IMG/VR virus record: IMGVR_UViG_3300037247_001314
Coordinates: 1 to 64,000 of that record
Direction: 5' to 3' (one strand)
Length of the DNA: 64,000 nucleotides
DNA from: a virus
Made by a program: the position numbers and the translations under genes. Positions 6,553 through 34,852 of the stretch are shown piece by piece. Under the pieces are notes generated by a model that had not been told where the DNA came from, ran no database searches, and worked only from the letters and a program-made list of their open reading frames with translations. The number at the start of each line of letters is the position of its first letter. The first letter of the stretch is position 1.

Positions 6553-6566
6553 ATTAGCCCACCCCT

Positions 6567-7262
6567 CTATTTAGAGCGGTAAGCACCTTCAACTCGCTGT
6601 CGGTGACCGCGCTGGTACTCGTTCCAACCCACACCATGTCGGTACTTAGTTTGCCCCCCACAACCACATTTACAGAAGGGAGGCTCCTCGCGCTTGACGC
6701 TAACTGGCACCTTGACGTTGGCATGGCCGTGGGCAAACTTCGCCCAGCCGCGAACACGTTTCCACCTAACCGCAAGACCGCAACCACAACCACACTTAGG
6801 GGGCAGCACGCCCTCCGGAGGTAATCGCCCGCAGACATCTGGATGACTCTGATGTTCTTTCGCGTGGCATCGACGACAGAGAGGAATAAGACTCTCGTCG
6901 TCACCAGGACGTTGGTGGTGTGCATGAACATTCTCTTTTGTACCACAACGCAGACAAGGTCGGCCCACCACCAAACGTTGGCGCGCTTGTTTATACTCTG
7001 TTGTTGTGTAAACACCAGCTCCTGGTCGAGGTTCAACGTCTCGTAACCGTTTACCTGCATAACGTCGACGTGCCGCCTCACGTTGTTTTTTGCGCGTCGC
7101 TTCAGAAGTAGTCTGGCCCAGTCGAGCCCCTGGTTTATTACGAGACGCATGCCCCTTCCGGTAACGAGACCAGCCTTTACCTGGTCCCCAACGAACAGAG
7201 GCGCCGCACCCACATGCGCACGGGGGAGCGGGCTCAGCTGTGGGCGGGAGGTAGGTAGCCAT
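6567..7262 (-). CDS. HNH endonuclease with three CGCG/GH zinc-finger-like repeats
   Basis: The 231-residue protein has a central HNH domain at residues 103-137 (CLRCGTKENVHAHHQRPGDD, then CRRCHAKEH). It is flanked by three copies of a small module of the form C-x-CGCG-x(8-10)-GW-x2-[YF]-x2-GH, at about residues 15-38, 157-180 and 197-220. Each module has three Cys plus one His and is probably a zinc-bound DNA-contact unit. Related C-x-CGCG...GH motifs are known from phage HNH proteins. The gene lies between two neck genes with 15-30 bases either side, as expected for a homing gene. It reads with the host module, unlike the HNH gene at 4.5 kb. Confidence 0.85.
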   Translation of the reverse strand: MATYLPPTAEPAPPCACGCGASVRWGPGKGWSRYRKGHASRNKPGARLGQTTSEATRKKQREAARRRYAGKRLRDVEPRPGAGVYTTTEYKQARQRLVVGRPCLRCGTKENVHAHHQRPGDDESLIPLCRRCHAKEHQSHPDVCGRLPPEGVLPPKCGCGCGLAVRWKRVRGWAKFAHGHANVKVPVSVKREEPPFCKCGCGGQTKYRHGVGWNEYQRGHRQRVEGAYRSK

Positions 7263-7291
7263 TCATCCAATGTTAGCTCGATATGGTATTG

Positions 7292-8353
7292 TCACGCAAC
7301 CCGCATGCGTAACCCCTTATAAGTACGAATGAGTTCGGGGTACTGATCTTTTAATTCCTTTGTATACTGTATAATTCTGGCCCCAAACCCAGCATTTGTC
7401 GCCGAGCTCGTCGTGTTGAACGACTGACTCAGACTGTCGAGGGAGATGCTCTGGCTCGCGATGCCAGCGCCCCCGAGGAGGTCACCGCCAATGTTGAGCG
7501 GGCCGAAGCTCGCTTCCTTGCCAATGACGTCTTTGATGTTCAGCGGCAGCGGATTGTCGGCGCCGAACCCCGCGAAGTAGGTGAGGCGAAACGCATTTGG
7601 GATGAACTTCGACGAGCGCAACCCTCGTAGCGCGTTGGCCGCCTGCGTTCCTGAGAAGCTGATTCCAGATGACGAGTCCGGCACAAGGTGCAGCTGGCCA
7701 AAGTCCTCCTGGAGCTGAAGCCAAGACGCGGGAAAGGCTTGCGCCACTTGCCCAGGCAGCATGAGTTCCACAACGGGCAATGTTGTGGCGTCGTCCTCAT
7801 CGTTAAGGATGGGAAACTCATCCGTGAGGAAAAACATGAAGGTCTCGGCGTCTTCACGAAACCAATCGTGTTTCTCGACGAAGCGCTTTGGGCACACCCG
7901 GACCTGCACCTTTTGCTCAAACTTCGCGATAGCGGCTTGGATGTAATGAACGTAGACCCTGTCTGGAAGCGGGATGCCTTGGTCGTTAGAGAGCGCGTCC
8001 TCAAGGCCGTACAGGTAGATGTCCTTGAGCTCCTGCACCGTTAGGGTTTTTTCGAACGTAGCGTCGACTGCCGGCGTGATGCCGAAGCGGACATCAACCG
8101 GAGTGCCCGGCACTGCGCTGTTCTGGAGGACGGGCTCATACTCCCAACCCTTCAGCGCAAGCTCGTCGAGGAAAAAGTAGTTGTAGACACCCGCCTGAAC
8201 AGTGACGGGGTCAATCTTGGTGACCAACGCAAAATCTTCGCTGGGTTTCTTTCGACGCTCCAGACGCACCGAATCGTAGCCCGCGGTCAGCAGCGACTGC
8301 GGGTCAGGGATGAAGATAAAAATCTTCGCTGGGTACGTCTGGATTTCAGCCAT
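7292..8353 (-). CDS. Virion structural protein of neck/tail module
   Basis: The 353-residue protein opens with a strand-rich region (KIFIFIPDPQSLLTAGYDSV then RLERRKKPSEDF) that resembles the PDPQSLLxAGYD start of structural proteins in other large phages. A Gly/Ser-rich stretch (NIGGDLLGGAGIASQSISLD) precedes the C-terminus. No enzyme motif is visible. The ATG at 8353 overlaps the previous stop by 8 bases and has GGGAG upstream. Confidence 0.65.
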   Translation of the reverse strand: MAEIQTYPAKIFIFIPDPQSLLTAGYDSVRLERRKKPSEDFALVTKIDPVTVQAGVYNYFFLDELALKGWEYEPVLQNSAVPGTPVDVRFGITPAVDATFEKTLTVQELKDIYLYGLEDALSNDQGIPLPDRVYVHYIQAAIAKFEQKVQVRVCPKRFVEKHDWFREDAETFMFFLTDEFPILNDEDDATTLPVVELMLPGQVAQAFPASWLQLQEDFGQLHLVPDSSSGISFSGTQAANALRGLRSSKFIPNAFRLTYFAGFGADNPLPLNIKDVIGKEASFGPLNIGGDLLGGAGIASQSISLDSLSQSFNTTSSATNAGFGARIIQYTKELKDQYPELIRTYKGLRMRVA

Positions 8354-9068
8354 CGGTAACTCCCGTGATGAAGCGGAAGTCGCCCGAGGCTACCGTCTTG
8401 CGTCGGTTGCGTCGCACTTCGAAGGTGACATTGTTCGCGTCTATCCAGATGGTACGGCCAACCTCCATGTTGAGGTCGTCGATAATCTTCGTGATGAGCG
8501 CTGGCTTCAGCTCGTTGGCGCCAGTCCCATCAGTAAGGTTGAGGATGTCACCAACCTTCGAGAGCAAGAACTTTGTGGCCGCGCCGACGACGGTGTTCGT
8601 TCCGTTGACGACAGTAACGTCCCCTATTTGGCTTACGCCCGCCCGCTCTTCGTCCTGGATGTTGGCTTCCAGGTCCCACGCGTGCTCGGGGTCCTCGTCG
8701 CGCGCGACCGTGCTCTCGTCGGTGTCGAGGGTGTCCGCTGTGTCAATCAGAACTTCAGCTTGACCAAGCGTGTCCCCAGCTTGCGCAAGGTACCGAATAT
8801 CGGAAGAGCCTCTTTGCGCATCTTTAAACAACAGCGCGTCGACATTGTCGTCAACGCCGGGGGTTCGCTTCGAGGCGTAGCGGAGAATGATGTGTCGATC
8901 GGCTGTACCGTCCACGGATTCGTGAAGATTGATAGGGAGCCGCGGCAAGGGCACCACGTCAGGGTCGGTAAGGTCTGGCTCCGTGACCGTGACTAGAAAC
9001 TCGTCGCTGTCGCCCTTCACGAGCTCCAACAGTTGGTCGAATACGTCCACTGTGGGGTCAACGGCCAT
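8346..9068 (-). CDS. Virion structural protein, unknown
   Basis: The 240-residue acidic protein is rich in Asp/Thr/Val. It has an N-terminal helix (VDVFDQLLELVKGDSDEFLV) and a strand-rich C-terminal half (FEVRRNRRKTVASGDFRFIT). I do not recognise it. It ends in TDG-stop and overlaps the next start by 8 bases, so the two are probably translationally coupled. Confidence 0.6.
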   Translation of the reverse strand: MAVDPTVDVFDQLLELVKGDSDEFLVTVTEPDLTDPDVVPLPRLPINLHESVDGTADRHIILRYASKRTPGVDDNVDALLFKDAQRGSSDIRYLAQAGDTLGQAEVLIDTADTLDTDESTVARDEDPEHAWDLEANIQDEERAGVSQIGDVTVVNGTNTVVGAATKFLLSKVGDILNLTDGTGANELKPALITKIIDDLNMEVGRTIWIDANNVTFEVRRNRRKTVASGDFRFITGVTDG

Positions 9069-9071
9069 CGG

Positions 9072-9365
9072 TCAGTCCTTGCACTCTACGTGAGCAGCGA
9101 GAGCCTTCTGGCTCTGCACTAAAGCTTGTAACGCAGATTGCGTCTGGACAACAGCTGTGATGGTGGACTGCGGAGCTACCTCTGCCATGAACTCGGTGGG
9201 TACGCCGATGAAACCTTGAAACTCTGCCGCCGAGGCTACGAGCGCTTGGGCTTGTTGCTGCTGCGCAATAGCCGCCTGCAGCTCGTGCCCCACAATCACC
9301 TCGACAGTGAGCGGATTGGGGCCGCACCACCACCCGTACGAAATCATGGGGAGAAACTTGCTCAC
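9072..9365 (-). CDS. Small Gln/Ala-rich helical protein
   Basis: The 97-residue protein starts at a GTG that overlaps the previous stop by 4 bases (GTGA). Most of it is predicted helix rich in Gln and Ala (AAIAQQQQAQALVASAAEF and TQSALQALVQSQKALAAHV), which suggests a coiled coil. No function is recognised. Confidence 0.55.
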   Translation of the reverse strand: MSKFLPMISYGWWCGPNPLTVEVIVGHELQAAIAQQQQAQALVASAAEFQGFIGVPTEFMAEVAPQSTITAVVQTQSALQALVQSQKALAAHVECKD

Positions 9366-17682: not shown

Positions 17683-19122
17683 TTAGGGCTGCCCCTTGAA
17701 GTTGGGGGCTCGACCGATGTTCCGGATGAGTACGGCCTTGCCCGGGGCATAGAGCACCGGAACTCCGTATACTAATTGCATCCAACGGATTGACGTCGAC
17801 ACGGTGGCCAGCGGCACCTTGAGGAATGGCGCCAACTGTTTCCAGCTGAGGCACTCAAGGTTCTGTTGCCAAAGGATGGCGATCGAGGTGAACGGCAAAC
17901 GATCGTTGACATCGTCGAAGGTGAACTCGCCCGCGCCAGCGGTGTTCGGGGTGCGAGCGATCTGCCGTTGTTTGCCAACAGCTCCGCCCTTTTTGGTGCG
18001 GTAGAGTTCGTACCACTTCACGCCGACGGCAGACCCGGGGGTCACACCGAACGTCATCTTGTCGCCTTCAGCAACGGCAATAGCACTGCCGTCGACAGCA
18101 ACGGCAACGCTACGGCCGAAGTCATTGTGCGCGGACACGCTGTAGAAGTAGGAACCTGCGTCTTCAGCGTCAAAGAGCGAGCCAGCGTCGGCCGGGGTTG
18201 TTGCGCCAGTCGAAATCGTTGGTGTCGCAGGACGCTGTGCGGCGTCGCCGGCCGCGGTAGCTTTCGGCGAACCGCCATCATTCACGAAAACATTCGGCTC
18301 AAAAAGCACATCGCCGGCCGGGCTGGTGAAGCCCTTGATATCGAGCCCAACCATCCCGTCCTTGCGCTTGTCCAGAAGGTCGTAGCGCCCCTTCGGGAAG
18401 AAGCTCTTGACGAGGTCAGCCTTAATCTTCGGATTGAGATGCAGGTGGGTCGGAATCCCGAAGTTCGGGTCGTCGCTGATGGTGAGCGCAGCGTCAATGA
18501 GGATGTCCTCGTCGAGCGGCTTACCACGCTGGTCGATGATGTTGTCAGCCGGCGCGTTGTCGGTGATGAGCTTCTCGTAGCCGTCAAACTGAATAGTCGA
18601 CAGCGAAGAGTCAGCGTAGAACAACGCACGCTCGACGATGCGCAAAAGCCACATCGTCCCCGCCACCGTTTCGTTTGCGATGACGTTGCCATGCGCCGGA
18701 CGAATCAAGCTCATCACGTGACTGACTGACCTGGTCGTGCCCAGGAACTTCACGGCCGCGTAGCGTCGAGCGAACGTAGAATCGTCCTCGGGAGGCAGCG
18801 CGCCCTCCGCGATGAAGCCCTCGATTCCTTCGCCGTAGCTCGAAATCTCGTTGTGCTCCTCGACGGTGTTGTACGCCGCGAGCTTGGGAATGGCCTTGAA
18901 CAGCCGGATGTGTTCCATCCGGTAGGTGACGTTCTTCAACGTCTGCTCGAGCGACTCAACGCGCAGAGGGAACCCCTGCCCCGGAGCAGCGCCCGGGTTG
19001 TTGATGTCGTTGCCCGCCGTGAGGGCCTTGTTCAGGTGGTCGAGGTCAGATTCCGAGAACGGATTTCCCGGCCCGAACCCGTCCACCCCGTCGTAGTCCT
19101 TCCAGGACACTTGGTCGATCAT
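17683..19122 (-). CDS. Major capsid protein with an Ig/FnIII-like insertion
   Basis: The 479-residue protein is the shell subunit. It follows the prohead protease and scaffold-like genes and has a strong ribosome site (AAGGAG, 8 bases). The N-arm includes KNVTYRMEHIRLFKAIPK at residues 63-80. Residues about 120-290 contain HK97-fold-like segments (VKFLGTTRSVSHVMSLIRPA, PTHLHLNPKIKADLVKSFFP). Residues about 300-410 form an inserted sandwich domain (GSYFYSVSAHNDFGRSVAVA, VKWYELYRTKKGG) of FnIII/Ig type, as found on the surface of several phage capsids. The C-terminus returns to the capsid fold (WQQNLECLSWKQLAPFLKVP). The gene contains none of the dispersed TCCAGAC motifs. Confidence 0.9.
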   Translation of the reverse strand: MIDQVSWKDYDGVDGFGPGNPFSESDLDHLNKALTAGNDINNPGAAPGQGFPLRVESLEQTLKNVTYRMEHIRLFKAIPKLAAYNTVEEHNEISSYGEGIEGFIAEGALPPEDDSTFARRYAAVKFLGTTRSVSHVMSLIRPAHGNVIANETVAGTMWLLRIVERALFYADSSLSTIQFDGYEKLITDNAPADNIIDQRGKPLDEDILIDAALTISDDPNFGIPTHLHLNPKIKADLVKSFFPKGRYDLLDKRKDGMVGLDIKGFTSPAGDVLFEPNVFVNDGGSPKATAAGDAAQRPATPTISTGATTPADAGSLFDAEDAGSYFYSVSAHNDFGRSVAVAVDGSAIAVAEGDKMTFGVTPGSAVGVKWYELYRTKKGGAVGKQRQIARTPNTAGAGEFTFDDVNDRLPFTSIAILWQQNLECLSWKQLAPFLKVPLATVSTSIRWMQLVYGVPVLYAPGKAVLIRNIGRAPNFKGQP

Positions 19123-21108: not shown

Positions 21109-21455
21109 TACAAAAACTCCTTGAACCGTTCCTCGAGCCTCGTTTGAGCCTCAGCCTCATTTGCCGCTGTTGGCCAATCCTCATCGGGGAACTGCGTGCC
21201 GAGTTCGGCGTAACGCTGCACCGTCGGCCAGAGCAGAAGGATAATGCCCTCAGCTGTTGGCACACGCAGGATACCGTCCTCGGGGTCATCAAGGAAGTCA
21301 GGGTGCTCGTCCAGAAAGGGGAGCCACAACTTCCCATTGCCCGGAGTGTTTGATAGCTGGAGTCGACCCGCAGACATGCTCACCTTCACGGCAGCTGTGA
21401 GCGGTTGGCGGGGGGAAACGCGCAAGTCGCGCACGATGTAAATGCCGGCTTTCAT
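21108..21455 (-). CDS. Unknown protein after the giant virion protein
   Basis: The 115-residue protein starts MKAGIYIVRDLRVSPRQPL at an ATG overlapping the previous stop by 4 bases; an upstream in-frame Met is inside the giant gene and is rejected. It has a strand-rich first half and a helical acidic end (NEAEAQTRLEERFKEFL). No family is recognised. Confidence 0.55.
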   Translation of the reverse strand: MKAGIYIVRDLRVSPRQPLTAAVKVSMSAGRLQLSNTPGNGKLWLPFLDEHPDFLDDPEDGILRVPTAEGIILLLWPTVQRYAELGTQFPDEDWPTAANEAEAQTRLEERFKEFL

Positions 21456-24400
21456 GCGCCCACCTTCAGACCTTTGCACGCGTCCTTAAGTGCTGTGTCG
21501 GTCTGAGTACCCGTGAAGAAAAAGTCGTCGACGGGGACACCATTGATTTTGGTCTTGCCGGCAGTCTTCATCGTGTTGATGAGTTCGCTGCGGATGGACA
21601 ACGAGCGGCACCACACCCCGGCGATGTCCTCATGAGCGACGCCGTTTTCGAACATCACCTCGTGATTGCTACTCGTGAGCTTCAATACCTCTTCTTCAGG
21701 CTTGCCTGTGTTCTTCGTGTCGGACTGGATTTGCGAGCCGTAACGATCGTGATGATGCGCCCAATAGTCTGCGCGCTTGAGGACACGCGGATGGTAGATG
21801 TAGCGGACCTGCGTATCGCTGTCGTCGTAACCGTGCACTGAACTTGCACCAGGGCCGCCCTTGCGCGCGACGCGCACCATCGTGCCCGCAGCGCCGCCCG
21901 TGTTGATGTCGTCGCTAGCTTGCGAACTCTTTGGCGCGGTGCCGTTTGTGTAGCCTTGTTTCCTCGATGGGATGCCTGTCTCGCTGAGCAAGATTGACGC
22001 TGCAGCTCCCGGGGAAGCCCCGCCTGTGTGCGCGAAGTAGACGTCCTTGAGTTCCTCCTTGCTGAAGCGGTCAAACCAGACAGTGTGCGCTCCGCCAGCG
22101 CCAACACGAATCTCAGCGGTGTCGACGTACTTCGCGTAGTCCATTTTCTTCAGCTGGCCATCCAGCCAAGCCTCGTCAGCATACTTGCGCCTGTCGAGGT
22201 CGTTACCGTCGATGTCGTAGAGCCAGTGCCCGCGCGTGCCTAAGCCACACTTCACGATTTGACTCTTGATGAAGAGCCGCTCTGCATCAGCGTCGTGGGT
22301 GCTAGCCGCGAGCTCGGGGGAGACGCCTGCCATCTGGAGTACGTGTTGCAGCTCTGTCTGGACATCTTTCGAGACGGGAATGCGCGCGACGAGACGCCCA
22401 CGCATCGCTACCCCTGCGGCTTGCTTTGGATCGTCTGTCTGGACGTATTTACCAGCTTGGTACATCGTGCCGTTTTGGTGACAAACGCCGACGTAAGAAC
22501 CCCCATCGGTCTTGCCGTCGTAGCCACCCCAGCCGCCTTCGATAGGCGTGTTGCCTTTCTTGTGCAGCCCCGTGTCCTCGTCGTAGATGTCGAAGCTTGG
22601 TGCTCCCTTCTTGTCGACCGGATGGTAGTATTTGACAACGCCCTTCGAGAGCTTTGAAGCGTCAGGCTCAAAATGCAGAAGGTCGCCGGTGAGCTCGTAA
22701 TAATCTTCGCCGTCTGGGTTGTCGACGCGGCGCACACTCACTTGGTGGTTTTGCCAAAGCCCTGCAGCGCCGTGCCTGATGGAATGGCCCCAGTGCCCCA
22801 TCTTGAACGAGTCGAGCGCAGCGAGGTCCCCTTCGTTATTCACCGCGAGCCCGCCCTGCTTTTGTGGGCCGAGTGCGAATGGCACGGGTGCTTGCACAAA
22901 CGCTGGCGGAAGCTCGGGGAGTATCGGGGTGACTTCCTTTGACGTTTCAAAGGCAGCGTCGAGGTCGGCCTTCGACACCGTGAAGACGGTACTGACGGAT
23001 ACCTGCGGTTCCCCGTGAGCAGTGATACCCTTTGCCGCTAAATACGCTGCAGCGTCTTCCTTTACCTTCGCAGAGACGCCGTTGAACTTGATGACAAGTT
23101 TGTCGGGCTCGCTGTCGTGCGCCTTAATCTTTTTCGGTTTCCCGGGCTCGATAGCCGTGAGGTCCGCGAGTACAACATCCCGCACCGTTTTGGTGACAAT
23201 CTCGTTAACCTCAAAGGTGGTGCCTTTCGGGTAAGTCAGACCATCGTGCGCAGCCTTGAGATACTTAGCGTCTGGAAAACGTTTCGCGAGCGCGCTCTTC
23301 TTGACGACGAGCATCGTTCCAAGGGGCGAATCGGAATCCGTCGAGGGTGGCATTCCCTCCCAGTTCTCCACAGACGTGTGGAACGCATTCGCGTCTTTGC
23401 CGGCGAGCAAATAGTTACCCTTGCCGTCCTCATGAACGTGCAGGCCTGCAGTGTAGCCTCCGTCTGCTAGCTGCTTCTGGAAGTGTGCGAGTACAAGCAA
23501 GTCCTCCGCGTCGGTCGGCTTCAGATTGTCTTTCGCCCACGCAGTCCAAGCTTGCGCTTTCTTGATTTGCTCCGAGTTGACGGGAACCTTGGGCTTCACC
23601 ACCTGGAGCGTGACGGGAGTCTTTTTCTTTTTGACCTTGTCACCAGGCCACTGAACAGACGCCCCACCTGCGTCTTTCACTAGGCTCGCTATTTGGTGCG
23701 AGGCGTAGACGCCAATGCCTTCACCCATCTTGTCGACACCGGTGAACTTCGAGTACGGCTTCCCACCGTCGGCCGTGAAGATGTCGCCCCACTTCGTGTG
23801 GAGCTTCACGTTCGCAGGGAGTTCTTTGATTTTGTCGTTGATGGTCGTCGACTTGAGATGGCCGCCGAGTGCCTTGACTTTCTTCACGCCCGACGGGTGC
23901 GAGGGCGTCTTCACCGTCAACGGGTCGACGACGACAGAATGCGTAGCGACTGATGTGTTGCCGTAGAGGTTGCCGTCGTTACCCTTCCAATAGGTCACGT
24001 TCTCTTTGACGAGTTGAATGCCAAACTTGTGGTCGGAATGCAGGACCGTCCCCACAGGGAGAGCCTTGAGTTCTGCCGGCGTCATCGAAGAAAAGTTACC
24101 CAGCGCGGGATCGAAACCGGCGTAGCCTGAATCGCTCTCCAACGTGAAGTCGGCCACGAGACTCGACGGGATGCCTTCCGACATCGGCTCGCCATCGTCA
24201 CCGATACCGGCCCAGTTACCGTTGGCGAGCTTGACGAGCTTGTCTCCAGACTTCACATGCACGCTGGCCCCAACGGGAGCCGCCTCGAGCGTGTCGACTG
24301 AGTTCACCGGCGATGTGCCGGGCCAGTCGTAGTTTGGCGCCGGAGTAATTGTTGGCGGGGTGGACGCAGCCTCGATGGCAGTCGTCTCAACAGCAAACTC

Positions 24401-27400
24401 TTTTACTGTTGCGCCGTGGTCCCCGAGCAGGCACCACGCGTTTAGGGCTCCTATGTGGGCCTGTGCCGGCTTGAGCGGAGCGAGGTTGTGGTCGTCGATA
24501 AACGTTTGAAGTACACCAGCGGCTGAGAGGCTTGCTCCCGCATTTGGATAGAAACGGAGAACATGTTCGCCACCGTGTGGGCTCACGGTGAACTTGCCGC
24601 CGTACTTCTGCTGCACCGACTCTTGCTGGATGTAGTCGCCGAGCACCATCTTCGTGACGACGGCTTTCGTCTTTTGCTCGGGGGGAATGTCTTGTGGATG
24701 GGCGCCGATGGCGGAGTCAGCCGTTATTAGCGCAGCATGGGTCGCGAAAGTGTCGTCTTGAGCGAACGCAGCAGTGTCGAGGTGGAATGCTTCTTCCATC
24801 GCTTCGTAACTGCCAGTTTTGCCGAGCGCGCTCCCGAGCGCGTAGAGCGCCGTCTGATTAGCGTCCCCGTGCGTGACGGCGCCATCCTCATTAACCGCTA
24901 CAAACTTTACTTGCCAAGGCGCACTACCATCGGTGTTGTACCCACTTGCTGTCGTCGTAATCCAAGTTTTTTTGCCCTTCCATTCGCCTTGTAGCCAAAC
25001 GCCCGTAGGCGGAACCCATGGATCCCAATGCGGACTTTTCATGCCGTAGGTTTTGTCAGGCTTACCTGGAACCGGAGCACCGGCGAGCTTCTGCGCGTTT
25101 GTCCAGACGGCTTCCTTCTCAGCAAAATCGGGTAGCGATTCCTTCGTCGTCACGACTACCGGCCCTGGGTCGCCAGAGATAGACGGGGTGGCCGGGGACC
25201 AACCAGAGAGTAATAGCTCAAGCGGAGTAAGCTCTTTTGGTTCAGGCTGCACAGTGCTTACAGGGTCGTGGGGCATCTGGACGAGCCATTCGAACGACTC
25301 GGGCTGAAAGTCCTTTGGGCTGAATGCGAACTCATCGCCAAGTTTTTTGCTGTACCACTTGCTGTCGTTGTGCTTGGTGTAGGTGTCCTTATCGTGCGTC
25401 ACCGACGAGCCCGGAGCCATCGCGGTAAGTTCGGCTACCGTCAACGGCTTGGCCCCGGAGCCACCAGCTGCGCCTGGCTGATGGATGATTTTGAGGTCGC
25501 TAGCTGCCATCTCCGTTGCAGAGAAGTTTGACCCGATGGTGTTGACGTAGCCGTCAGCAACTTTTTTATACGTGTAGCCCGCTGAGTCCTTGAGCACAGA
25601 GTTGAGAGGAAGTTTTGAAAGCTCGACAAGAGACGGAAGTTTCGCGCCTTTCCAAAGAAGTTTGCTCTCAACGTCTGGAACTGGCCCCGGGAGCACCTTC
25701 CATGTTGTGGAACTCAACGGGAGAAAGTCCGGGTGCGTAACGATGTTGGTGCCAACTGCGACCCATTGCTCGTCAGACTCTTTGATGAACGCCTTCTCAC
25801 CGTTGTTGATCATTGAGCCGAGCGGCATGGCCGCGAGCTCGGCCAACGTGAGTTCTTTTGCGCCAAATAGCGCGGGCAGCACGCCTAGGGGCAGCGGCGA
25901 CTGCGCTGCAGGGGCGTCGGGGGCGAGGACCTTCATGCCGCCATACCCAGACGATGCGTCTCCGGCGATATCGGAACTCAGCTGCTCGTCGGATAACGCA
26001 GGAATATCGGTGATGCCTAATGGCTTCCATCCAGACGCAGTCTTAACCCAACCATCCTCGCCAGGAAGGGTCTCTGGGCCCGGCTTGGATCCCGGCTCGC
26101 CATAGACGAGCATGGTGCCTTCAGGAAGTGCAGCGAGTTCGTCGCCACTCGGAAGTTTCCAATCGTCCCAGCCCGGCTCTCCGGGCGCGCTCGGGGTGAG
26201 CGGCGTAGCGAACGTCATGAGTTCGCCGCTCTTTGGTTTCACGCCAAAAAACTCCCAACCACCTCCAGACGCAACCTTCGTCTTGCCGGTTTGCTTCTTA
26301 TAATCCGCTTTGTCCTCGTAACCCTTCTGGCGGAGCCAGACCCAATCACTTGCTGCCGACAGGCTTTTGAAGGTTTGCTCTGCATCCGCTGCAGCACCGG
26401 GGACACCAGCGATAGAAACCTTGAAGCCTTCTTCCAACACTTCAAGGTCGACCGCTACCTCGTACTCTTTTGTTCCAACGCCAGTGGGCGTCGGTAACAC
26501 AAATGGCTTGAGCATCGTGTGCTTGTGCCCAACAGGAAGCGGACCGCCCTTCTTTGGGTAGACGGGGTTCGCGAGGATGGTGTCCTGGACAACAAAGTCA
26601 GAAATCACCTCAGCCTTAGGCGCGAGCCCGACGACGGGCTTGGGGGGAGGGGGCGGCTTGGGCTTTTTGAGCTGCTGGGTCGCCTTCGCTGCTGCGGAAA
26701 CAGACGGGAGCAATAGCACGGGTTTGAGCCCCGGGCTGGAGGCAGAGAACGCGCCGTACTCTGTCGCTGCACCATTCGACGCTACAGAATAGTATTTGAA
26801 AAGAGGGGCGCCGTCTGGAGATTGGTGAGCGACATAAATGTCAAACGATCCACCTCCGTCGAGAGCTTTGATGACGCTGCCGGGGAGCGGAAGGTTGGCG
26901 GGCCAATCATGTGGCACCGTCGCCTTCGCGTGCTTGGCTGCAAACAACTTCGCAGCATTTGGGATGAGTGCGGAGTCAGCGATGATGCCGTCCTCGACGG
27001 TGGCCAGCATCTCGTGCAGCGTGAGCGCCTTCTGCTCAGGCGTGACCTTCTTTTCAGCGACGAGTTCTTCGTACGTCTTGCTCGCAATGGTAGCTGCGCC
27101 TTGCAGCCCCGCAGCCTTGAGGTCCTCTGCAAACTGTTCCAACTCAAAGAGCTTCGTCGCGCTGAGCGCGATGCCGTTCTTCTTCTTATCCGACGAGTTC
27201 ATGTCTAGCGGAAGATTCTTGTTGAACAGCTGAGTGCCGTCAGCTGCTGCCGCTGGCGACGGGTAGAGTATGAACTTGCCGTCTGGAAACTGCGCCTGCA
27301 CCTCCATCTTGCCCGAAAACGGATTCAGCTCAAAGGCAAACGCAAACGTGTTGCCCGCGACCTTCACAGACGCGTAGTAGCCCGGGCCCGGATAGTTGCT

Positions 27401-28849
27401 TGGCCATCCAGAGGGGTGCGGACCACCTGGATGCATAACGGTCACCTTGCCCTTTGTCATGGGCCAGCCAGGCACTTGGGCGACGTCGACGGGCTTGGCT
27501 GCTTTATCCTCGACAGGAGCCGCCGCGGGCGGACCTTCGTCTGCGCCGGGAATCGTGACGCTCTCACCCGTCATCTCCGATAGAAACGTTTCCCAGTTAC
27601 TGCGCAAGTCTTTGAACCGCTGCTCGATGAGTGCCCATTTTTTCTTAGGCGTGAACCCGTCAAGACCAGCGCCAGCTTCTTCGAGATAGGGCGCGACGAT
27701 GCTGTGGTACTGCTCCAGCGACAGGTTCTTCTCGATGCTGTTGAGCACCTCAGCTGCAGCCTTCACCGGATCGCCTTTGATGTCGCCCTGCTGAAAGAGC
27801 TTCCACATCGCGTTGTAGGCCGGCGAGCTCGGGTTGAGCTTGTAGCTGTCGCTAAGCTTGTCAGCGCCGATGGCCTTGAACGCTTGTCCCTTGTCGAGAG
27901 CAGCGATGTCGCCGTCCATCGTGTGGACGAAGTTGGCGCCGTGGCTGTCGTGGTTGCTCATCATCCAGTCGAGCACTTGGTGCTGAACAAGACGTTCAAA
28001 GTGCTTCTGAAGGACAGACGTCTGGACGCCGTGGTCGCCGCTCACCTCATTGCCGATGTTACCCTTGCTATCGATCCACGACAGGAGCACGCCTTTGTCG
28101 CCCTCGTGCGTGACCATCTCTGCGTCTGGATAGAGCTCGGGCTCGGGGAAGACGAGCTTGGCCACGCGGTTGAACACTTCTTCAGCGCGGGACACCCAAG
28201 TCTGGCCGTTGTTAGTTTTCCAAGCGTATTGATTCCCTTTGTCGTCAACGACAATCTTGCCACCGTGGGTTCCGCCTAGCGCGCCTTTGAGCTTAAGTGT
28301 CGCGAGCATCGTGTCGGAGAACGGAGGGTCCTCGTCAGCGCCGGAAGCGCCCTTCGCTGCCCACGCGACCAACTCGTCTGCATGCGGAATGAGAGGCTCG
28401 CCGACGTGGTCCCACAGCGACGAGGTCTTCACTTTCACCATGCCGCCAGTAGGCACGGTCTTAAGGTCGGGGAAAGAATCCGTGAGTTTCTTAGCGTCGG
28501 CAGCAGACACCACGAACACGCCCGCGTAGCCGTGCCCTTTTGCTGTGACGCCTAGCTCGTCGAGCCAGGCTTCTATTTGCTTGGCGTGGTCGCTATCTGC
28601 GGGGTGCTGCGCCGGGGGCGCCTTTAGAGTCTTTGCCGCGGTCTTCTGCGCTTTGAGTTTCTTCGCAGCCGCTGACCCGCCGTAGACAGGCTTGCCGTTC
28701 TTCCAGCCAACAATCTTTCCACCTTTGGGGCCGATGGCGATTACGGCCATGCCATCCGCGTAGCCAAGCTTCGGCTTCGGGGCCTTGCTTAAGCCGCCAT
28801 GGGCCTTGGCAAAGACAGTGGGCTCAATCGCTAGTGCTGTCTGGAACAT
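21452..28849 (-). CDS. Giant (2465 aa) internal virion protein: kinase-like plus ART-like domains
   Basis: This is the largest gene in the window. After a GPKGGKIVGWKNGKPVYGG motif (residues about 40-60) there is a kinase-like domain (about 180-430). Its core LDWMMSNHDSHGANF (near 298) and DKGQAF (near 319) fit the D-x-x-x-x-N ... D-x-G catalytic pattern of HipA/PI3K/actin-fragmin-type kinases. The middle holds at least six copies of a module around [EL]-L-x-[AL]-[LAM]-P-x-[GN]-[ST] near residues 903, 1003, 1073, 1138, 1518 and 1590. A basic KKKKTPVTLQVV stretch lies near 1738. The C-terminal 200 residues contain YFAHTGGASPGAA (near 2273) and NHEVMFENGVAHEDI (near 2396), which fit the first His/Arg strand and the terminal Glu strand of ADP-ribosyltransferases found at the end of phage head proteins. 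Multidomain proteins of this kind are thought to be packaged and ejected with the DNA. Confidence 0.75.
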   Translation of the reverse strand: MFQTALAIEPTVFAKAHGGLSKAPKPKLGYADGMAVIAIGPKGGKIVGWKNGKPVYGGSAAAKKLKAQKTAAKTLKAPPAQHPADSDHAKQIEAWLDELGVTAKGHGYAGVFVVSAADAKKLTDSFPDLKTVPTGGMVKVKTSSLWDHVGEPLIPHADELVAWAAKGASGADEDPPFSDTMLATLKLKGALGGTHGGKIVVDDKGNQYAWKTNNGQTWVSRAEEVFNRVAKLVFPEPELYPDAEMVTHEGDKGVLLSWIDSKGNIGNEVSGDHGVQTSVLQKHFERLVQHQVLDWMMSNHDSHGANFVHTMDGDIAALDKGQAFKAIGADKLSDSYKLNPSSPAYNAMWKLFQQGDIKGDPVKAAAEVLNSIEKNLSLEQYHSIVAPYLEEAGAGLDGFTPKKKWALIEQRFKDLRSNWETFLSEMTGESVTIPGADEGPPAAAPVEDKAAKPVDVAQVPGWPMTKGKVTVMHPGGPHPSGWPSNYPGPGYYASVKVAGNTFAFAFELNPFSGKMEVQAQFPDGKFILYPSPAAAADGTQLFNKNLPLDMNSSDKKKNGIALSATKLFELEQFAEDLKAAGLQGAATIASKTYEELVAEKKVTPEQKALTLHEMLATVEDGIIADSALIPNAAKLFAAKHAKATVPHDWPANLPLPGSVIKALDGGGSFDIYVAHQSPDGAPLFKYYSVASNGAATEYGAFSASSPGLKPVLLLPSVSAAAKATQQLKKPKPPPPPKPVVGLAPKAEVISDFVVQDTILANPVYPKKGGPLPVGHKHTMLKPFVLPTPTGVGTKEYEVAVDLEVLEEGFKVSIAGVPGAAADAEQTFKSLSAASDWVWLRQKGYEDKADYKKQTGKTKVASGGGWEFFGVKPKSGELMTFATPLTPSAPGEPGWDDWKLPSGDELAALPEGTMLVYGEPGSKPGPETLPGEDGWVKTASGWKPLGITDIPALSDEQLSSDIAGDASSGYGGMKVLAPDAPAAQSPLPLGVLPALFGAKELTLAELAAMPLGSMINNGEKAFIKESDEQWVAVGTNIVTHPDFLPLSSTTWKVLPGPVPDVESKLLWKGAKLPSLVELSKLPLNSVLKDSAGYTYKKVADGYVNTIGSNFSATEMAASDLKIIHQPGAAGGSGAKPLTVAELTAMAPGSSVTHDKDTYTKHNDSKWYSKKLGDEFAFSPKDFQPESFEWLVQMPHDPVSTVQPEPKELTPLELLLSGWSPATPSISGDPGPVVVTTKESLPDFAEKEAVWTNAQKLAGAPVPGKPDKTYGMKSPHWDPWVPPTGVWLQGEWKGKKTWITTTASGYNTDGSAPWQVKFVAVNEDGAVTHGDANQTALYALGSALGKTGSYEAMEEAFHLDTAAFAQDDTFATHAALITADSAIGAHPQDIPPEQKTKAVVTKMVLGDYIQQESVQQKYGGKFTVSPHGGEHVLRFYPNAGASLSAAGVLQTFIDDHNLAPLKPAQAHIGALNAWCLLGDHGATVKEFAVETTAIEAASTPPTITPAPNYDWPGTSPVNSVDTLEAAPVGASVHVKSGDKLVKLANGNWAGIGDDGEPMSEGIPSSLVADFTLESDSGYAGFDPALGNFSSMTPAELKALPVGTVLHSDHKFGIQLVKENVTYWKGNDGNLYGNTSVATHSVVVDPLTVKTPSHPSGVKKVKALGGHLKSTTINDKIKELPANVKLHTKWGDIFTADGGKPYSKFTGVDKMGEGIGVYASHQIASLVKDAGGASVQWPGDKVKKKKTPVTLQVVKPKVPVNSEQIKKAQAWTAWAKDNLKPTDAEDLLVLAHFQKQLADGGYTAGLHVHEDGKGNYLLAGKDANAFHTSVENWEGMPPSTDSDSPLGTMLVVKKSALAKRFPDAKYLKAAHDGLTYPKGTTFEVNEIVTKTVRDVVLADLTAIEPGKPKKIKAHDSEPDKLVIKFNGVSAKVKEDAAAYLAAKGITAHGEPQVSVSTVFTVSKADLDAAFETSKEVTPILPELPPAFVQAPVPFALGPQKQGGLAVNNEGDLAALDSFKMGHWGHSIRHGAAGLWQNHQVSVRRVDNPDGEDYYELTGDLLHFEPDASKLSKGVVKYYHPVDKKGAPSFDIYDEDTGLHKKGNTPIEGGWGGYDGKTDGGSYVGVCHQNGTMYQAGKYVQTDDPKQAAGVAMRGRLVARIPVSKDVQTELQHVLQMAGVSPELAASTHDADAERLFIKSQIVKCGLGTRGHWLYDIDGNDLDRRKYADEAWLDGQLKKMDYAKYVDTAEIRVGAGGAHTVWFDRFSKEELKDVYFAHTGGASPGAAASILLSETGIPSRKQGYTNGTAPKSSQASDDINTGGAAGTMVRVARKGGPGASSVHGYDDSDTQVRYIYHPRVLKRADYWAHHHDRYGSQIQSDTKNTGKPEEEVLKLTSSNHEVMFENGVAHEDIAGVWCRSLSIRSELINTMKTAGKTKINGVPVDDFFFTGTQTDTALKDACKGLKVGA

Positions 28850-28881: not shown

Positions 28882-29193
28882 CTACTGAGGAACGACGAAG
28901 GTGACTGCCTTCTTCTTTTTCTTTTTGGGAAAGCTTTTGCTGAGTGCAACCTCCAAGTCGACGTCGTCTGGCAGCGCGTGCTGTTGTGCGAGTTCGCCAT
29001 CAATGCGGATGTCGTAAAAGGTGCCGGCGAGTTCAGGATTCGCCCCTTCAATGAGCAAATCGCGCTTGCCCGCTACCCACGCACGCGCGTAGTCGCCAAG
29101 CACCTTCATGCCCTGCGGCGTGAAAGAGCCGTCGTCGTTCTCCGTCGCTAGCGCTTTCGAAAGCTCGACCGTTATCTGGATGTGCTCAACCAT
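28882..29193 (-). CDS. Small protein ending in a basic-AVTF tail
   Basis: The 103-residue protein begins MVEHIQITVELSKALATEND and appears to be a small alpha/beta domain. It ends in SFPKKKKKKAVTFVVPQ, a tail found in related form at the C-termini of several other proteins of this phage. The start overlaps the stop of the Mu-F-like gene by 8 bases (AATGGTTGA). Function is unknown; the position among internal head proteins suggests packaging into the virion. Confidence 0.6.
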   Translation of the reverse strand: MVEHIQITVELSKALATENDDGSFTPQGMKVLGDYARAWVAGKRDLLIEGANPELAGTFYDIRIDGELAQQHALPDDVDLEVALSKSFPKKKKKKAVTFVVPQ

Positions 29194-31687
29194 TGCTCGC
29201 CTTCTTTCTAGCGCGGGCTCGTTGCTGGATGAGTTCGTACGCTTTCTCCTGCGTCTTCTGCGCGTTCTTGGTGCGTGTTTCAGCGACGGGGATGTGTGGA
29301 TTGTCCTCGCGGAAGTTCGCTACCAACGTCGTGCCGATGTCTTGGCGCCGATGTTTCTTTGCGACAACGAGGTTGGTACCGTCGTACTTCGCGATGGGCT
29401 TGCCCTCATGTGTCACCACGTAGTTGGCGCGGGTCGCATCGTCGTTGTGCCCACGATGCACTTCGAACTTGCTGCTGTGCCCTTCAACCTTAAACTCCTC
29501 GGGCTTCACGTGCTCAGTAAGCTTGCTGTGCTTGGGCACGAGGTCGCTCGCGTGGCCGGCTTTAGTCCGTTTGGGTTTACCGAGAAACTCTTCGCGGGAC
29601 ATCTCGTGCGCGTGTTTGTCGGCGTAGATGGGCTTTCCAGCCGCAGTGTGCCCCACCACCTTGCCCCCGCGCGAACCTTCTCCAGCCTTGTTCACGAGGT
29701 CAATAGGTTTGCGCTCCCCGTCGCCCTCGATGATGCGCGCGTCGTCGGTCTGCTCGGGGTAGCGCGGTCGGCCTTCCAGTTGCACAGGATGCCACTGACC
29801 CTCTGGCTGCCGTGTTGCTCCGCGGTTGGTCGGCACATCGCGCATCTGGAAGCTCAGGCGCTCCACCTCGCGTTTGTGCTCTTCGGCGCGGTTCTCCGTC
29901 TCATCCGGCGTGATGATGTTCTTCGTGTTCCCGTGTGCGTCGGCGATCGGGTAGATCTGATTGTCGACTCCGCCCCCGAACACATAAATCTCGGGGTCTC
30001 GACGCACGATGACGTCAGCGCGGTGCTGTGCGTCTTGAAGGTACGCAACTACGCCAGCTACGTCGTGTGGGTTGTGGGGTTTGTCTGGAAGGTCGGCTTG
30101 GATGTTCACCCCGCCGCCGCTGCCCTCCTTGAGGATGAACTGTCCGCCGCCAACAGCAAACGCAGCACCGCTCACCCCCTCGACGTGGGGCAACGCTTTG
30201 AAGAGGGTAACTGCTCTCCGGCGAAGTTTTCGGCGCACCGTGAACCGCGCTTCAGGCTCCAGCGGCGCAGGCGGTGGTGCTACAGGCGCAACGTAGTTTG
30301 GGTTGGGGATAATAAACTCAGGTTCCGCTTTCACAAGCTTGCGCGGTTTGTCGCGCGTGGTCGCGAGTTCCGTTTTGAGCTTGTTCATCGACATCGTCGT
30401 CATGCTGCCGAAGAACCCTTTGTCATCGTAGTTGCCAATGTACGCAGCCTTTGCTTCTGCCGCCGACGAGAAGCCCAGCATAATCTTGTCCTCGTCGTAG
30501 CCCTCAAACTTGCCCTCCAACGTCCGCTTGCGCTGATGCACAATGTACGCGCTTGGCGCGAGCGGGTTTGGGCCGACGAAGCAGTCGACGTGGTCTCCGT
30601 CGACGCCAAGCGTGCGCCGGATGTAGCCGTACGGCCAAAGCATGACGGTTGCGCCATCGGTCTTGTTCTTGTGGTCTTTCCAAAACCGGAGGCCTCCCGC
30701 CCCATTCTCAATAGCCACATCAAGCCCCTGGAACTGCAGCTCTCCGTCCAGACGGTACGCCTTCACCAACGCATCCATATGGAGCGCTTCCAGACGCATA
30801 GCCTTCTCAACGTCCTCAGAGTCCCCTTCGTACTCAACGCCAAACTCGCCGGCAGGAATCATCGTGCCGTCCTCGTCGTAACCCCAGCCCGCAGGAACGC
30901 GCACGATTTGGCATTGGCAGTTTGGGTGAATGGCGCCGATGCAGGCCACCCAGTCAGCAGCTTTCTTGCCTACGTTCGCGCCCGGTGGGGCCAACTGCGA
31001 GAGCTTGAAAATGATGGGAGCGCCATCTGGACCGAGGTGGAGGCGCTTGCAATGTTTGCACGCATCCGGCATCGGAATGAGCGAGACGCGCGCTTCGGGG
31101 CCGTACTGTTTACGGAAGCCATCGCCGACACCCTCCTGCATGACGTTGTGGTTTTCGGTGATGGCAATGCGGTCGAGATCCCGCGTCCAATCCTGCATCG
31201 AATGCCCGAGCCTACTTTTGAGAGTCCCTACTGTTTTCCGGGAGGCAATCTTCTCAGCCGTCTCTGTCCGGATTTTACCCTGCAGCTCTCTGCGCTGTGC
31301 GCGGTCTGCCTCGACAAGGACCTGCCCTGTCTGGAGATCGATGGTATTGCCAAGTCCCACGACGTACTGCGCAGCATTTAGCTTTGCTGTCTGGACAGCC
31401 TGCACTTCCACCGCCGACAGTGGGATGGGGTTCTTTGTGAGTTCAGCTTTCACCTTGGCAAGGTCCCACGTCGGCATGTTGGGGTCCTGGAGCTTGGCCA
31501 CCAGCTGGCCGTAGTTGTACGCCGTCTCGAACAGGTCCTCGTGGCCTTCCAAAAGGCCAGCGTCCTGCAGCTCTTTCACCATCTCCGGTGGTATAGCGGC
31601 AGGGCCGAACACGTCGACGACAAAAGCCGCGTTGTGCTTCTGGATGATGTCCTTCACCACGCGCAGGAGCTCGGGAGTGAGTTTCAC
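29186..31687 (-). CDS. Minor head protein: Mu gpF-like, pyrophosphatase-like and GNAT-like domains
   Basis: The 833-residue protein is a multidomain minor head protein. Residues about 150-265 match the Mu gpF/SPP1 gp7-type head morphogenesis domain, with DLDRIAITENHNVMQEG, CKHCKRLH (near 211) and HPNCQCQI (near 253). Residues about 340-440 match the phage 'inorganic pyrophosphatase-like' polyvalent domain, with GYIRRTLGVDGDHVDCFVGP and DKIMLGFSSAAEAKAAYIG. A basic stretch RRKLRRRAVTLF lies near 485. A C-terminal segment with LVVAKKHRRQDIGTTL (near 780) resembles the acetyl-CoA loop of GNAT acetyltransferases. The GTG start overlaps the upstream stop by 4 bases. It lies after the portal region, as minor head proteins do. 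Confidence 0.8.
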   Translation of the reverse strand: MKLTPELLRVVKDIIQKHNAAFVVDVFGPAAIPPEMVKELQDAGLLEGHEDLFETAYNYGQLVAKLQDPNMPTWDLAKVKAELTKNPIPLSAVEVQAVQTAKLNAAQYVVGLGNTIDLQTGQVLVEADRAQRRELQGKIRTETAEKIASRKTVGTLKSRLGHSMQDWTRDLDRIAITENHNVMQEGVGDGFRKQYGPEARVSLIPMPDACKHCKRLHLGPDGAPIIFKLSQLAPPGANVGKKAADWVACIGAIHPNCQCQIVRVPAGWGYDEDGTMIPAGEFGVEYEGDSEDVEKAMRLEALHMDALVKAYRLDGELQFQGLDVAIENGAGGLRFWKDHKNKTDGATVMLWPYGYIRRTLGVDGDHVDCFVGPNPLAPSAYIVHQRKRTLEGKFEGYDEDKIMLGFSSAAEAKAAYIGNYDDKGFFGSMTTMSMNKLKTELATTRDKPRKLVKAEPEFIIPNPNYVAPVAPPPAPLEPEARFTVRRKLRRRAVTLFKALPHVEGVSGAAFAVGGGQFILKEGSGGGVNIQADLPDKPHNPHDVAGVVAYLQDAQHRADVIVRRDPEIYVFGGGVDNQIYPIADAHGNTKNIITPDETENRAEEHKREVERLSFQMRDVPTNRGATRQPEGQWHPVQLEGRPRYPEQTDDARIIEGDGERKPIDLVNKAGEGSRGGKVVGHTAAGKPIYADKHAHEMSREEFLGKPKRTKAGHASDLVPKHSKLTEHVKPEEFKVEGHSSKFEVHRGHNDDATRANYVVTHEGKPIAKYDGTNLVVAKKHRRQDIGTTLVANFREDNPHIPVAETRTKNAQKTQEKAYELIQQRARARKKASNG

Positions 31688-32070
31688 CCGAGACGCTCGT
31701 AGCGCGGGTTACCGGGGCCCCATCCCGGTACGACACGAACGGCACGCGCCCTACGCGCCTTTGGCTTGAAAATACGGCGCCACCACGGCACGCGACCAAC
31801 GCGCACGATCTTGTCTACGACGTTGTACGCGGCTGTCTTCGGGATGTCCTTCCAGTACGCAATGTGTTCCACACTAAAAGTGACGTTCTTCGGTGCCGAA
31901 AATCTCAGGCGGGGATCGGGTGTAAAAAACGCGATGGTGCGGCCGTCGTTTACGAACGGCTCAGGAAGCTTAGGCGCGGGCTTCTGTCCAAGCTCAAGGT
32001 TCGCTGTGAGCATTGCTGCGGCGAGGCCAACACCGAGCTTTGCCAAAAATCCTCGTCGTGTGTCGCTCAT
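31684..32070 (-). CDS. Tat-type signal peptide fused to a capsid N-arm-like segment
   Basis: The 128-residue protein starts MSDTRRGFLAKLGVGLAAAM, a textbook twin-arginine signal (TRRGFLAK plus a hydrophobic h-region of about 15 residues); the ATG overlaps the previous stop by 4 bases. Residues 61-85 (KNVTFSVEHIAYWKDIPK and on) align without gaps to residues 63-87 of the major capsid protein (KNVTYRMEHIRLFKAIPK and on), sharing K-N-V-T, E-H-I, K, I-P-K, A-A-Y-N and V. The C-terminus is basic (FKPKARRARAVRVVPGWG). No enzymatic motif is seen. It may be a membrane- or periplasm-directed protein that binds head components, or a captured capsid fragment. Confidence 0.65.
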   Translation of the reverse strand: MSDTRRGFLAKLGVGLAAAMLTANLELGQKPAPKLPEPFVNDGRTIAFFTPDPRLRFSAPKNVTFSVEHIAYWKDIPKTAAYNVVDKIVRVGRVPWWRRIFKPKARRARAVRVVPGWGPGNPRYERLG

Positions 32071-32522
32071 GTTGCGTTCCCATCTTTCACGAGCGCAGAT
32101 TTCAACAAGCCGCAAAGCTCGTTGACGCTCATACCGTAAAGCGGGCCGTCTTCCTCGAAGTCTTCGTCGGTGTGCCCTTGCGCAATGAGCGCCGCCTTCA
32201 TCTTAGCAAATGCAGCTTCCTCAATGGCCACTACTTTTGCGGTGTAGTCGGGGCTCTCGCTTTTGATGGTGTGGTCGTCGACCGCTTGGAGAATCTCCGC
32301 CACCATGCGGTCGTACCCTCTGGTCGCGCGTGAGCGCATGCTCCCGTGAAGTTCACGGAGCGCTTGGTGCTTGAGCACGGGTTCGTGCGCGTGCAGGGAA
32401 GCCTTCTGGAGCGCGTTGGCGAGCTCGGGCGCATCGACTGCAAGCGCCTTCGCGAGTTCGTCGAGAAGGTCAGAGCCGCGCTCTGCGAGTTCCCCTTTGG
32501 TGGCGTCCAGACGTAGCCTCAT
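32067..32522 (-). CDS. Helical protein of head module, unknown
   Basis: The 151-residue protein begins MRLRLDATKGELAERGSDLL at an ATG overlapping the upstream stop by 4 bases. It is almost entirely helical and charged (LLDELAKALAVDAPELANAL, KMKAALIAQGHTDEDFEED) with no recognised motif. It is part of a tightly coupled run between portal-adjacent and Tat-type genes. Confidence 0.6.
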   Translation of the reverse strand: MRLRLDATKGELAERGSDLLDELAKALAVDAPELANALQKASLHAHEPVLKHQALRELHGSMRSRATRGYDRMVAEILQAVDDHTIKSESPDYTAKVVAIEEAAFAKMKAALIAQGHTDEDFEEDGPLYGMSVNELCGLLKSALVKDGNAT

Positions 32523-32926
32523 GGCGTTATGGGATCTCCCCACACCGCCCAAAGGAGTCGCAGGTCTGCAAGCGGAGTGACCTTCAGCGACGTGACGATA
32601 GCCTCCATGAACACTTTCGCGTCTGGAGCTTTAGGCGCGGTGGCTACGTCGGTCTGTCCTCGACGCACCTGGATGACTTGCCCGCTGTTGTTGATTTCTA
32701 GGTCGAAGTCGTTATCGGCTCGCAAGAAAAAACCGTAGATGGTGGTGGGGCCACCGAGGGGGACATCAAACTCGCCGGCAGCAAGAGTGATGTCCCTGGT
32801 GTCGTTGCCCTGGCTAGCGAAGCCGTCGAGGATGGTCTCCGCTAGGACGTCGCTCAGTCCGAGCAAGATGGAGGTGCCATCTTTGTCCTCAGTGAAACGT
32901 GGGTTGACGGTGTGTCGAATGCGCAT
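32519..32926 (-). CDS. Head/neck-module protein, unknown
   Basis: The 135-residue protein has a strong ribosome site (GGGAGG) and a beta-rich sequence (EFDVPLGGPTTIYGFFLRAD, FDLEINNSGQVIQVRRG) that looks like a jelly-roll or Ig-type subunit. It lies directly after the portal gene and may be a head decoration or connector component. The family is not recognised. Confidence 0.6.
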   Translation of the reverse strand: MRIRHTVNPRFTEDKDGTSILLGLSDVLAETILDGFASQGNDTRDITLAAGEFDVPLGGPTTIYGFFLRADNDFDLEINNSGQVIQVRRGQTDVATAPKAPDAKVFMEAIVTSLKVTPLADLRLLWAVWGDPITP

Positions 32927-32935
32927 AGCGCCTCC

Positions 32936-34852
32936 CTACAGGTCGAGGTCAATGTGCAAAACTGCGGCTCGGCGCTCGGCCTTCTTCAGTTTCGTAGCAA
33001 GGTGTGCGCGCTGGCCATCATACTGATCGGCGAGGGCGGACTCTCGCGCTGCGTGCGCCTTGTACTGCACAGCTAGGGCGCGAGCTTGGTCCCGCTCCAC
33101 TTTCAAATCGTGAATGGGCTGCCCCTTGCGTAGCGCCGCATCCGCGCGCATGGCCTCGGTAGGTGAGTGCGTCCAGAGACCGTCGGCGCTCTGAAGCCAA
33201 CCATCCATCCATCCCATCGACTTCGCAGCCGCATCAGGCTTAGCAGGCTTGCCGGGAGGACCACCCTCAACGTTGTTGCTTGCGCCTTCGTCGTCAGCCG
33301 CGTTCTCATTCTGGATGCCATCGAGTTCGCCGCCGAAGCCGTCGTCTTCCTCGCCAGGCTCGGGGGGAGGGGCGAAGTCGCCGACCTCCATGTCCTGCTG
33401 AGCGGCCATCGTCTTGTTCTGCATCCAGACAGGGTTGAGGATGACCTCGCCTTCGCCGTCTGGAAGCGGTGGCAAGTCTTCTTCGGCACGCACTTCGTCC
33501 ACGGTCTTGTACGACGACACGAGCTTGGTGTTGAGGTCTGCGAGCTCCTCGGGCGACGCAGCGTCGAGCCCCACGAAAGCAAACTCGAAGTCCTCGTCGA
33601 TGCGGTGGACGAGGTACGACGACAACCGGTGCGCGATGAACCGAAGCAGCGGTTGCAGCCCTTTGTCTTTCGAGTTCGCGAGCTTCTGTTTGTTGTTGCT
33701 CTCAAACATCGACGATGCGCCGCCGCTGTCGCCGTACTTGAAGTTGATTTCAAGCGGGTCCATCCCATAAATGGCGCACGCAACCTTGATGAGGAAATCG
33801 AACCACGCGCTAAACTCCATGTCTTTGTTGGACTCTTGGAGCTTGATGTATTCCAGACCTTCGGCGTTGGTGATGGGAGTTTTGAACGCGTTCTCGATGC
33901 CGGCGACCATCGAGTACCAGTGTCGACGGAAAGCGCGCAGCTGGCGCTCAGGCACCGCACCCTTGAAGTTGATGATGCCCTTGGAGCTTGTGCCTTGACT
34001 GAAAAACTTTTGGTTGTAGTCCCATGACCAAAGCAGCGACGTCACCGTCGTGATGAGCATCTCCGTCTCAGCAACGCCGTAGCCTTGGTTGCGAATGTCG
34101 GTGACGGGGTTGCGGATGCCGAAGCACAGTTGGTCCGCGCCATACTCCGCGGTGACGAGGCCATCATAAATCTGGACGTAGCGCGTCTCGTCTGGGTTCC
34201 CTTGGTAGTGGAGCTTGGTGGTGTCTGCGATGCGCAACGTAGCGCCGTCGACGGCGTAGAAGTCGAAGGGTTTGTGCCCGCGGTCTTCGCGCACCTCAAA
34301 ACCCATCTGGTCGTAGGTGAGCGCGTCGCGAGTGATTTTGCGAAGGAACGTCTCAAAGTTGTCACGGGCGTTCGGGGTAGCCTCGTCAGCCACCTTGCCC
34401 GTCGTCATCATCCAGTTGGTGATTTCTTTGCTCATCTTCTCGCTGGCACGAGAGGGGGCTGCCTTGCGGTCGCGCAGCTGAATGCGGAAACCTGTCTGGA
34501 ACTTATCCTCTTGCGGCATCGAGAACGACGCCAGCTGGTCGGTGCGAGTTTTGATTATCGCCTGGAGGATGGGCATGCGAAAGACCATCGCCTGCAGCGT
34601 CGAATAGCTGATGGAGCTCGGGCGCTCTTTATACCCGAGCGCGTCGATGACGCTGAACGGGTCCCAAAAAAGTGCCTTAGGCTCCGCCGTGGGGTCGCCA
34701 ATCTCCGACGGGTGCATTGCAGCGGTCGCAGGTGTGTTCTCCGACGGCTGTGCACCATCGTCGTCCTCGTCACCCTGAGCTTTGGCGAGGACGTCGAGGG
34801 CAGCTACCGAAGCAGCGCCCGCGGCGTCTCGCATGGTATCGAACAACCCCAA
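32936..34852 (-). CDS. Portal protein
   Basis: The 638-residue protein forms the dodecameric portal at the head vertex. It has the portal family pattern: an N-terminal helix (MGLFDTMRDAAGAASVAAL), the early MPILQAIIKTRTDQLASFS helix, the YDQMGFEVREDRGHKPFDFY wing, and FSAWFDFLIKVACAIYGMDP with the following GGASSMFESNN crown region. An acidic, disordered linker (residues about 480-560) and a coiled-coil end (KLKKAERRAAVLHIDLDL) form an extension. The start is TTG, supported by AGAGG 5 bases upstream and by the conserved GLFD N-terminus. Confidence 0.92.
   Translation of the reverse strand: MGLFDTMRDAAGAASVAALDVLAKAQGDEDDDGAQPSENTPATAAMHPSEIGDPTAEPKALFWDPFSVIDALGYKERPSSISYSTLQAMVFRMPILQAIIKTRTDQLASFSMPQEDKFQTGFRIQLRDRKAAPSRASEKMSKEITNWMMTTGKVADEATPNARDNFETFLRKITRDALTYDQMGFEVREDRGHKPFDFYAVDGATLRIADTTKLHYQGNPDETRYVQIYDGLVTAEYGADQLCFGIRNPVTDIRNQGYGVAETEMLITTVTSLLWSWDYNQKFFSQGTSSKGIINFKGAVPERQLRAFRRHWYSMVAGIENAFKTPITNAEGLEYIKLQESNKDMEFSAWFDFLIKVACAIYGMDPLEINFKYGDSGGASSMFESNNKQKLANSKDKGLQPLLRFIAHRLSSYLVHRIDEDFEFAFVGLDAASPEELADLNTKLVSSYKTVDEVRAEEDLPPLPDGEGEVILNPVWMQNKTMAAQQDMEVGDFAPPPEPGEEDDGFGGELDGIQNENAADDEGASNNVEGGPPGKPAKPDAAAKSMGWMDGWLQSADGLWTHSPTEAMRADAALRKGQPIHDLKVERDQARALAVQYKAHAARESALADQYDGQRAHLATKLKKAERRAAVLHIDLDL

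Follow-up and report, generated by a model that had tools for sequence, protein, structure and literature searches.

A partial paralogue of an SPO1-type major capsid protein behind a twin-arginine-like start in a phage head operon

Phage heads are built from capsid proteins, which are also frequent alarm signals for bacterial immunity. In the window (the whole 64,000-nt stretch of viral DNA analyzed here) a small gene places a segment of the phage's capsid protein behind what resembles an export signal. The preliminary description of the locus reported a protein of 128 residues that joins a twin-arginine (Tat-type) start to a copied segment of the major capsid protein (MCP). Translation of the window ORFs bears out its position and length (table 1), and a canonical twin-arginine signal-like start (MSDTRRGFLAKLGVGLAAAMLTANL / MSDTRRGFLAKLGVGLAAAMLTANLELG) and a true MCP copy do lie in one ORF. 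The Tat signal model is the only known family that the protein matches, with no matches in Pfam or PHROG.

Table 1. Locations of the small gene, its parts, and related features (window positions unless a contig is named)
Feature	Location	Strand	Basis or remark
128-aa protein: twin-arginine signal/anchor-like start, MCP N-arm copy, and basic tail; pI 11.3	31684..32070	-	
Residues 1-31, RR signal/anchor-like segment, best-conserved part	31978..32070	-	74% identity with orthologue; TIGR01409
Residues 61-87, copy of MCP 63-89	31810..31890	-	16/27 identical; MCP-only profile E 1e-7
Residues 90-128, basic, poorly conserved tail, net charge about +10	31687..31803	-	
161-aa ORF (p161), upstream neighbor; stop overlaps start of 128-aa gene (ATGA)	32067..32552	-	
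MuF-like minor head protein, 833 aa, pyrophosphatase-like domain; GTG start overlaps stop of 128-aa gene (GTGA)	29186..31687	-	
Portal protein	32936..34852	-	Pfam PF04860 E 1.7e-25
Major capsid protein, SPO1/Herelleviridae type, 479 aa	17683..19122	-	PHROG 752; SPO1 gp6.1 9vel
MCP residues 63-89, parental segment	18856..18936	-	
Orthologue on a 110-kb viral contig	L003:9998-10426		Only other member found

Relationship of the small protein to the major capsid protein

The MCP of the window matches PHROG 752 "major head protein" (E 2e-83) and SPO1 gp6.1, whose structure is known (PDB 9vel; E 1e-80), and has relatives in 632 phage records, mostly Herelleviridae-type phages of Staphylococcus, Bacillus, Enterococcus, and Listeria. 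A match of the A3 profile to SPO1 gp6.1 was left out of the evidence because that profile includes MCP rows. The stretch copied into the small protein belongs to a highly conserved part of the MCP. Residues 61-87 of the small protein (KNVTFSVEHIAYWKDIPKTAAYNVVDK) and residues 63-89 of the MCP (KNVTYRMEHIRLFKAIPKLAAYNTVEE) form a gapless alignment with 16 of 27 positions identical (tblastn within the window, E 2e-6; E 1.6e-5 in a search of the whole record), and the 16 identities in 25 positions that had been counted earlier between residues 61-85 and MCP 63-87 are exact.

The score of this alignment was reached by none of 1,000 shuffles. We also built a profile from 15 MCP N-terminal regions (MCP 40-110), leaving out the small protein, and searched 12,608 ORFs from eight related genomes; it matched eight MCPs, the orthologue of the small protein (E 2.9e-11), and the window protein itself (E 9.8e-8), with no further match below E 0.13. 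The orthologue, used alone as a query, finds the MCPs of 14 related contigs (E 3e-9 to 4e-12), and chance similarity is rejected by these matches together with the MCP-only profile and the shuffles. Judged by these alignments, the capsid-like segment is homologous to the MCP and the homology is secure.

At the DNA level 55 of 81 positions of the copied stretch are identical to the MCP gene, including 15 of 27 third positions, which rules out recent gene conversion; a match at the protein rather than the DNA level points to an old duplication. The MCP-like part of the orthologue is longer (49 ungapped residues, 20 of them identical to the MCP), and judged from it the copied stretch corresponds to about MCP 47-95, which, following the general layout of the HK97 fold, we take to be the N-arm plus the strand that runs into the E-loop. 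This N-arm stretch is all that the small protein and the MCP have in common, and the 128-aa protein is thus not a complete HK97-fold capsid protein. Separately, VPGWGPGNP in its tail (31705-31731) resembles VDGFGPGNP at the start of the MCP (19060-19086), a score reached by 1 of 1,000 shuffles; we dropped it as a second copied motif because the comparison is post hoc, the DNA identity is 16/27, the orthologue lacks it, and it may be chance.

Distribution, divergence, and genomic context

The only known orthologue shares its start (MSDTRRGFFKKLGIGIAGAMLAANLDLG) with the window protein and keeps both the RR motif and the MCP-like segment, so that the refuting outcome named in the preliminary description, orthologues lacking either part, did not occur. 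No further member was found in bacterial genomes, and viral contigs searched with the protein and its orthologue, singly and as a pair, as well as with the neighboring MuF and p161 proteins, returned the orthologue only. A search of 50,697 phage genomes gave the MCP itself but no small paralogue. No second MCP copy was seen in 47 other MCP-family records, many of which are fragments, so that absence is unproven record by record. A widespread family is rejected, since viral contigs, bacterial genomes, phage genomes, and 34 more MCP-family records yielded one orthologue only; with its occurrence limited to the window phage and one relative, the small protein is not essential to this head type.

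In a tree of N-arm segments the two small-protein copies group together (support 0.69 on a short alignment). They share an Asp where 80 of 80 MCPs have Glu or Ala, and both keep a Trp that is present in 66 of 80 MCPs and is Phe in the window's own MCP. The evidence suggests a single partial duplication of the MCP that would predate the separation of the two phages. The small protein, known from two genomes, is a partial paralogue, specific to this lineage, of the SPO1-type MCP that the phage itself encodes.

The small protein diverges far faster than the products of neighboring genes: it is 38% identical between the window and L003, compared with 90% for the MCP, 82% for MuF (first 440 aa), 64% for p161, and 59% for p135. 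By part, identity is 74% for residues 1-31, 17% for 32-58, 34% for 59-90, and 24% for 91-128. Gene order in both genomes is terminase, two ORFs, portal, p135, p161, small gene, and MuF-like protein, and the small gene overlaps each neighbor by four bases (in the window ATGA upstream and GTGA downstream, in the L003 relative ATGA on both sides), suggesting that its translation is coupled with that of the head genes. Different ORFs directly precede MuF in six other relatives.

Several other features of these head regions were observed. Where the window has the short p161 behind the portal, G003, G007, G010, G011, G013, and G014 have ORFs of about 1500-2600 aa, and p161 likeness is found at the start of those in G003, G007, and G014. 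Downstream of MuF lies a 2465-aa ORF (21452-28849), of which G001, G003, and G007 have diverged relatives. The terminase (78-2396) and portal (6091-9132) of L003 carry intein-like insertions that are not in the window phage, with portals of 1013 versus 638 aa. The MCP genes of two relatives are split at different codons by small ORF-less group I introns (L111:1736-1984, inside the N-arm codons after AYNTV, and L153:11348-11618) that match Rfam RF00028 at 81 and 69 bits, respectively. The L153 locus (CP070677.1, 1759145-1780856) has a related MCP (63% identity) and adjoining head genes in a Latescibacterota MAG chromosome and is possibly a prophage and a hint to the host of this phage group; no copy of the small protein was found in that chromosome.

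The twin-arginine start and possible roles

In both proteins the RR motif (RRGFL and RRGFF) is followed by 14 uncharged residues. The pattern that we tested, RR and then an h-region with at least 13 uncharged residues, is present in both proteins and in only 0.2% of shuffled starts. The NCBIfam model TIGR01409, with a cut-off of 16.7 bits, scores the window protein at 17.4 bits and the orthologue at 12.8 bits, so that the orthologue falls below it. The N-terminal helix is short and moderately hydrophobic, and by eye no clear AxA cleavage site was seen. This speaks for an uncleaved anchor, as does the RR start being the most constrained part of the protein, unlike a disposable cleaved signal (dN/dS about 0.1, a rough value, as are all those obtained here, with synonymous sites near saturation). 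From its sequence features, an uncleaved anchor or a non-exported helix would be as likely as Tat export. The "secreted mimic" is a less likely reading because Tat export would place a capsid mimic across the membrane from the assembling heads; a role at the membrane surface or in the virion suits the operon position better.

We tentatively favor, at somewhat short of an even chance, an accessory head-morphogenesis factor that docks on the MCP through its N-arm copy, with an uncleaved RR helix at the membrane or portal side. The N-arm homology in both genomes argues for this, as do the conserved gene order and the four-base overlaps with head-operon neighbors. The small protein would be made together with the portal, minor head protein, and capsid; its N-arm copy would fill the site on an MCP subunit that normally takes a neighbor's N-arm; and the hydrophobic RR helix, remaining uncleaved, would hold it at the cytoplasmic membrane or a portal-side position, resulting in docking, nucleation, or restraint of the MCP rather than in a secreted protein. 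T4 offers precedents for the separate steps: its capsid N-arms touch neighboring subunits, and its prohead assembly begins, with the small chaperone gp40, at the inner membrane (PMC9958956). Against docking, the gene is missing from all relatives except one, the N-arm copy lacks several residues that are invariant in MCPs and has diverged fast, the RR motif should direct the C-terminal part to the other side of the membrane, and the AF2 models (mean pLDDT 52 for the 128-aa protein and 42 for the MCP) are too poor to use. If the protein is exported by Tat, the docking model fails.

It is doubtful, but conceivable, that the own-capsid piece acts as a membrane-anchored mimic that organizes prohead assembly or decoys capsid-sensing immunity; we know of neither in tailed phages. 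An N-arm copy that stands alone after a membrane-type signal would lend itself naturally to docking, to dominant-negative action, or to use as a decoy, and would help to show where SPO1-like heads assemble and how their N-arm contacts are controlled.

The alternative that survives best, although unlikely, is a minor virion or internal head protein in which the N-arm copy serves as a capsid-targeting tag, the basic tail makes contact with DNA, and the RR helix is Tat-like in appearance only. The location between portal-side genes and MuF, the pI of 11.3 in the window protein and 10.1 in the orthologue, and the orthologue's score under the Tat cut-off are consistent with such a protein, but both proteins keep the RR motif and uncharged h-region while most else has diverged. 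That the MCP-like stretch is a recombination relic, decaying without a role while the N-terminal part alone is used, is improbable: the middle and tail are 17-34% identical and other relatives have no copy, yet frame and overlaps are intact in both genomes despite near-saturated synonymous sites in neighboring genes, and the Asp shared by the two copies occurs in 0 of 80 MCPs. Ranked lower again is a decoy or modulator of capsid-sensing host defenses, in which a membrane-held N-arm piece would draw off or block a sensor. Capsid proteins set off CapRel, Lit (Gol peptide), and Thoeris (PMC9712102, PMC11312562), and fast evolution and lineage-specific occurrence would suit this role; however, no sensor is known for the host, a capsid fragment could equally trigger a sensor, and late rather than early expression is expected from the head-operon position. 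Least probable is a real Tat-exported or periplasm-facing protein (e.g., for superinfection exclusion) that reuses the capsid stretch as a plain folding element, for although the RR motif is canonical, the window protein exceeds the TIGR01409 cut-off, and the orthologue retains motif and h-region, there is no clear cleavage site, the gene is in the head operon, and both copies retain residual MCP likeness.

Comparison with known systems

Compared with the SPO1/Herelleviridae-type MCP (PHROG 752; gp6.1, 9vel), the small protein is homologous over about 27-49 residues of the N-arm region but is without the remaining HK97 fold and has its own new N-terminus and tail. Like Tat signal peptides (TIGR01409), it has a motif of the TRRGFLxK type and an uncharged hydrophobic stretch of 14 residues; it differs from them in that the orthologue is under the cut-off, a clear AxA is lacking, the sequence is unusually conserved, and the cargo is a capsid piece. 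The T4 head chaperone gp40 is also a small phage protein, and a membrane role in head assembly is proposed here by analogy only; gp40 is not a capsid fragment, and it has no known sequence relation to the small protein. In Ty1, p22/p18 is a self-encoded piece of capsid protein that as a separate product controls assembly (PMC4599808). The resemblance to this restriction factor is in the manner of working only, whereas the Ty1 protein is the C-terminal half of a retrotransposon Gag made from an internal start and is unrelated. The window protein and its orthologue are a real, unusual fusion known from two genomes only, of the capsid-derived accessory protein kind.
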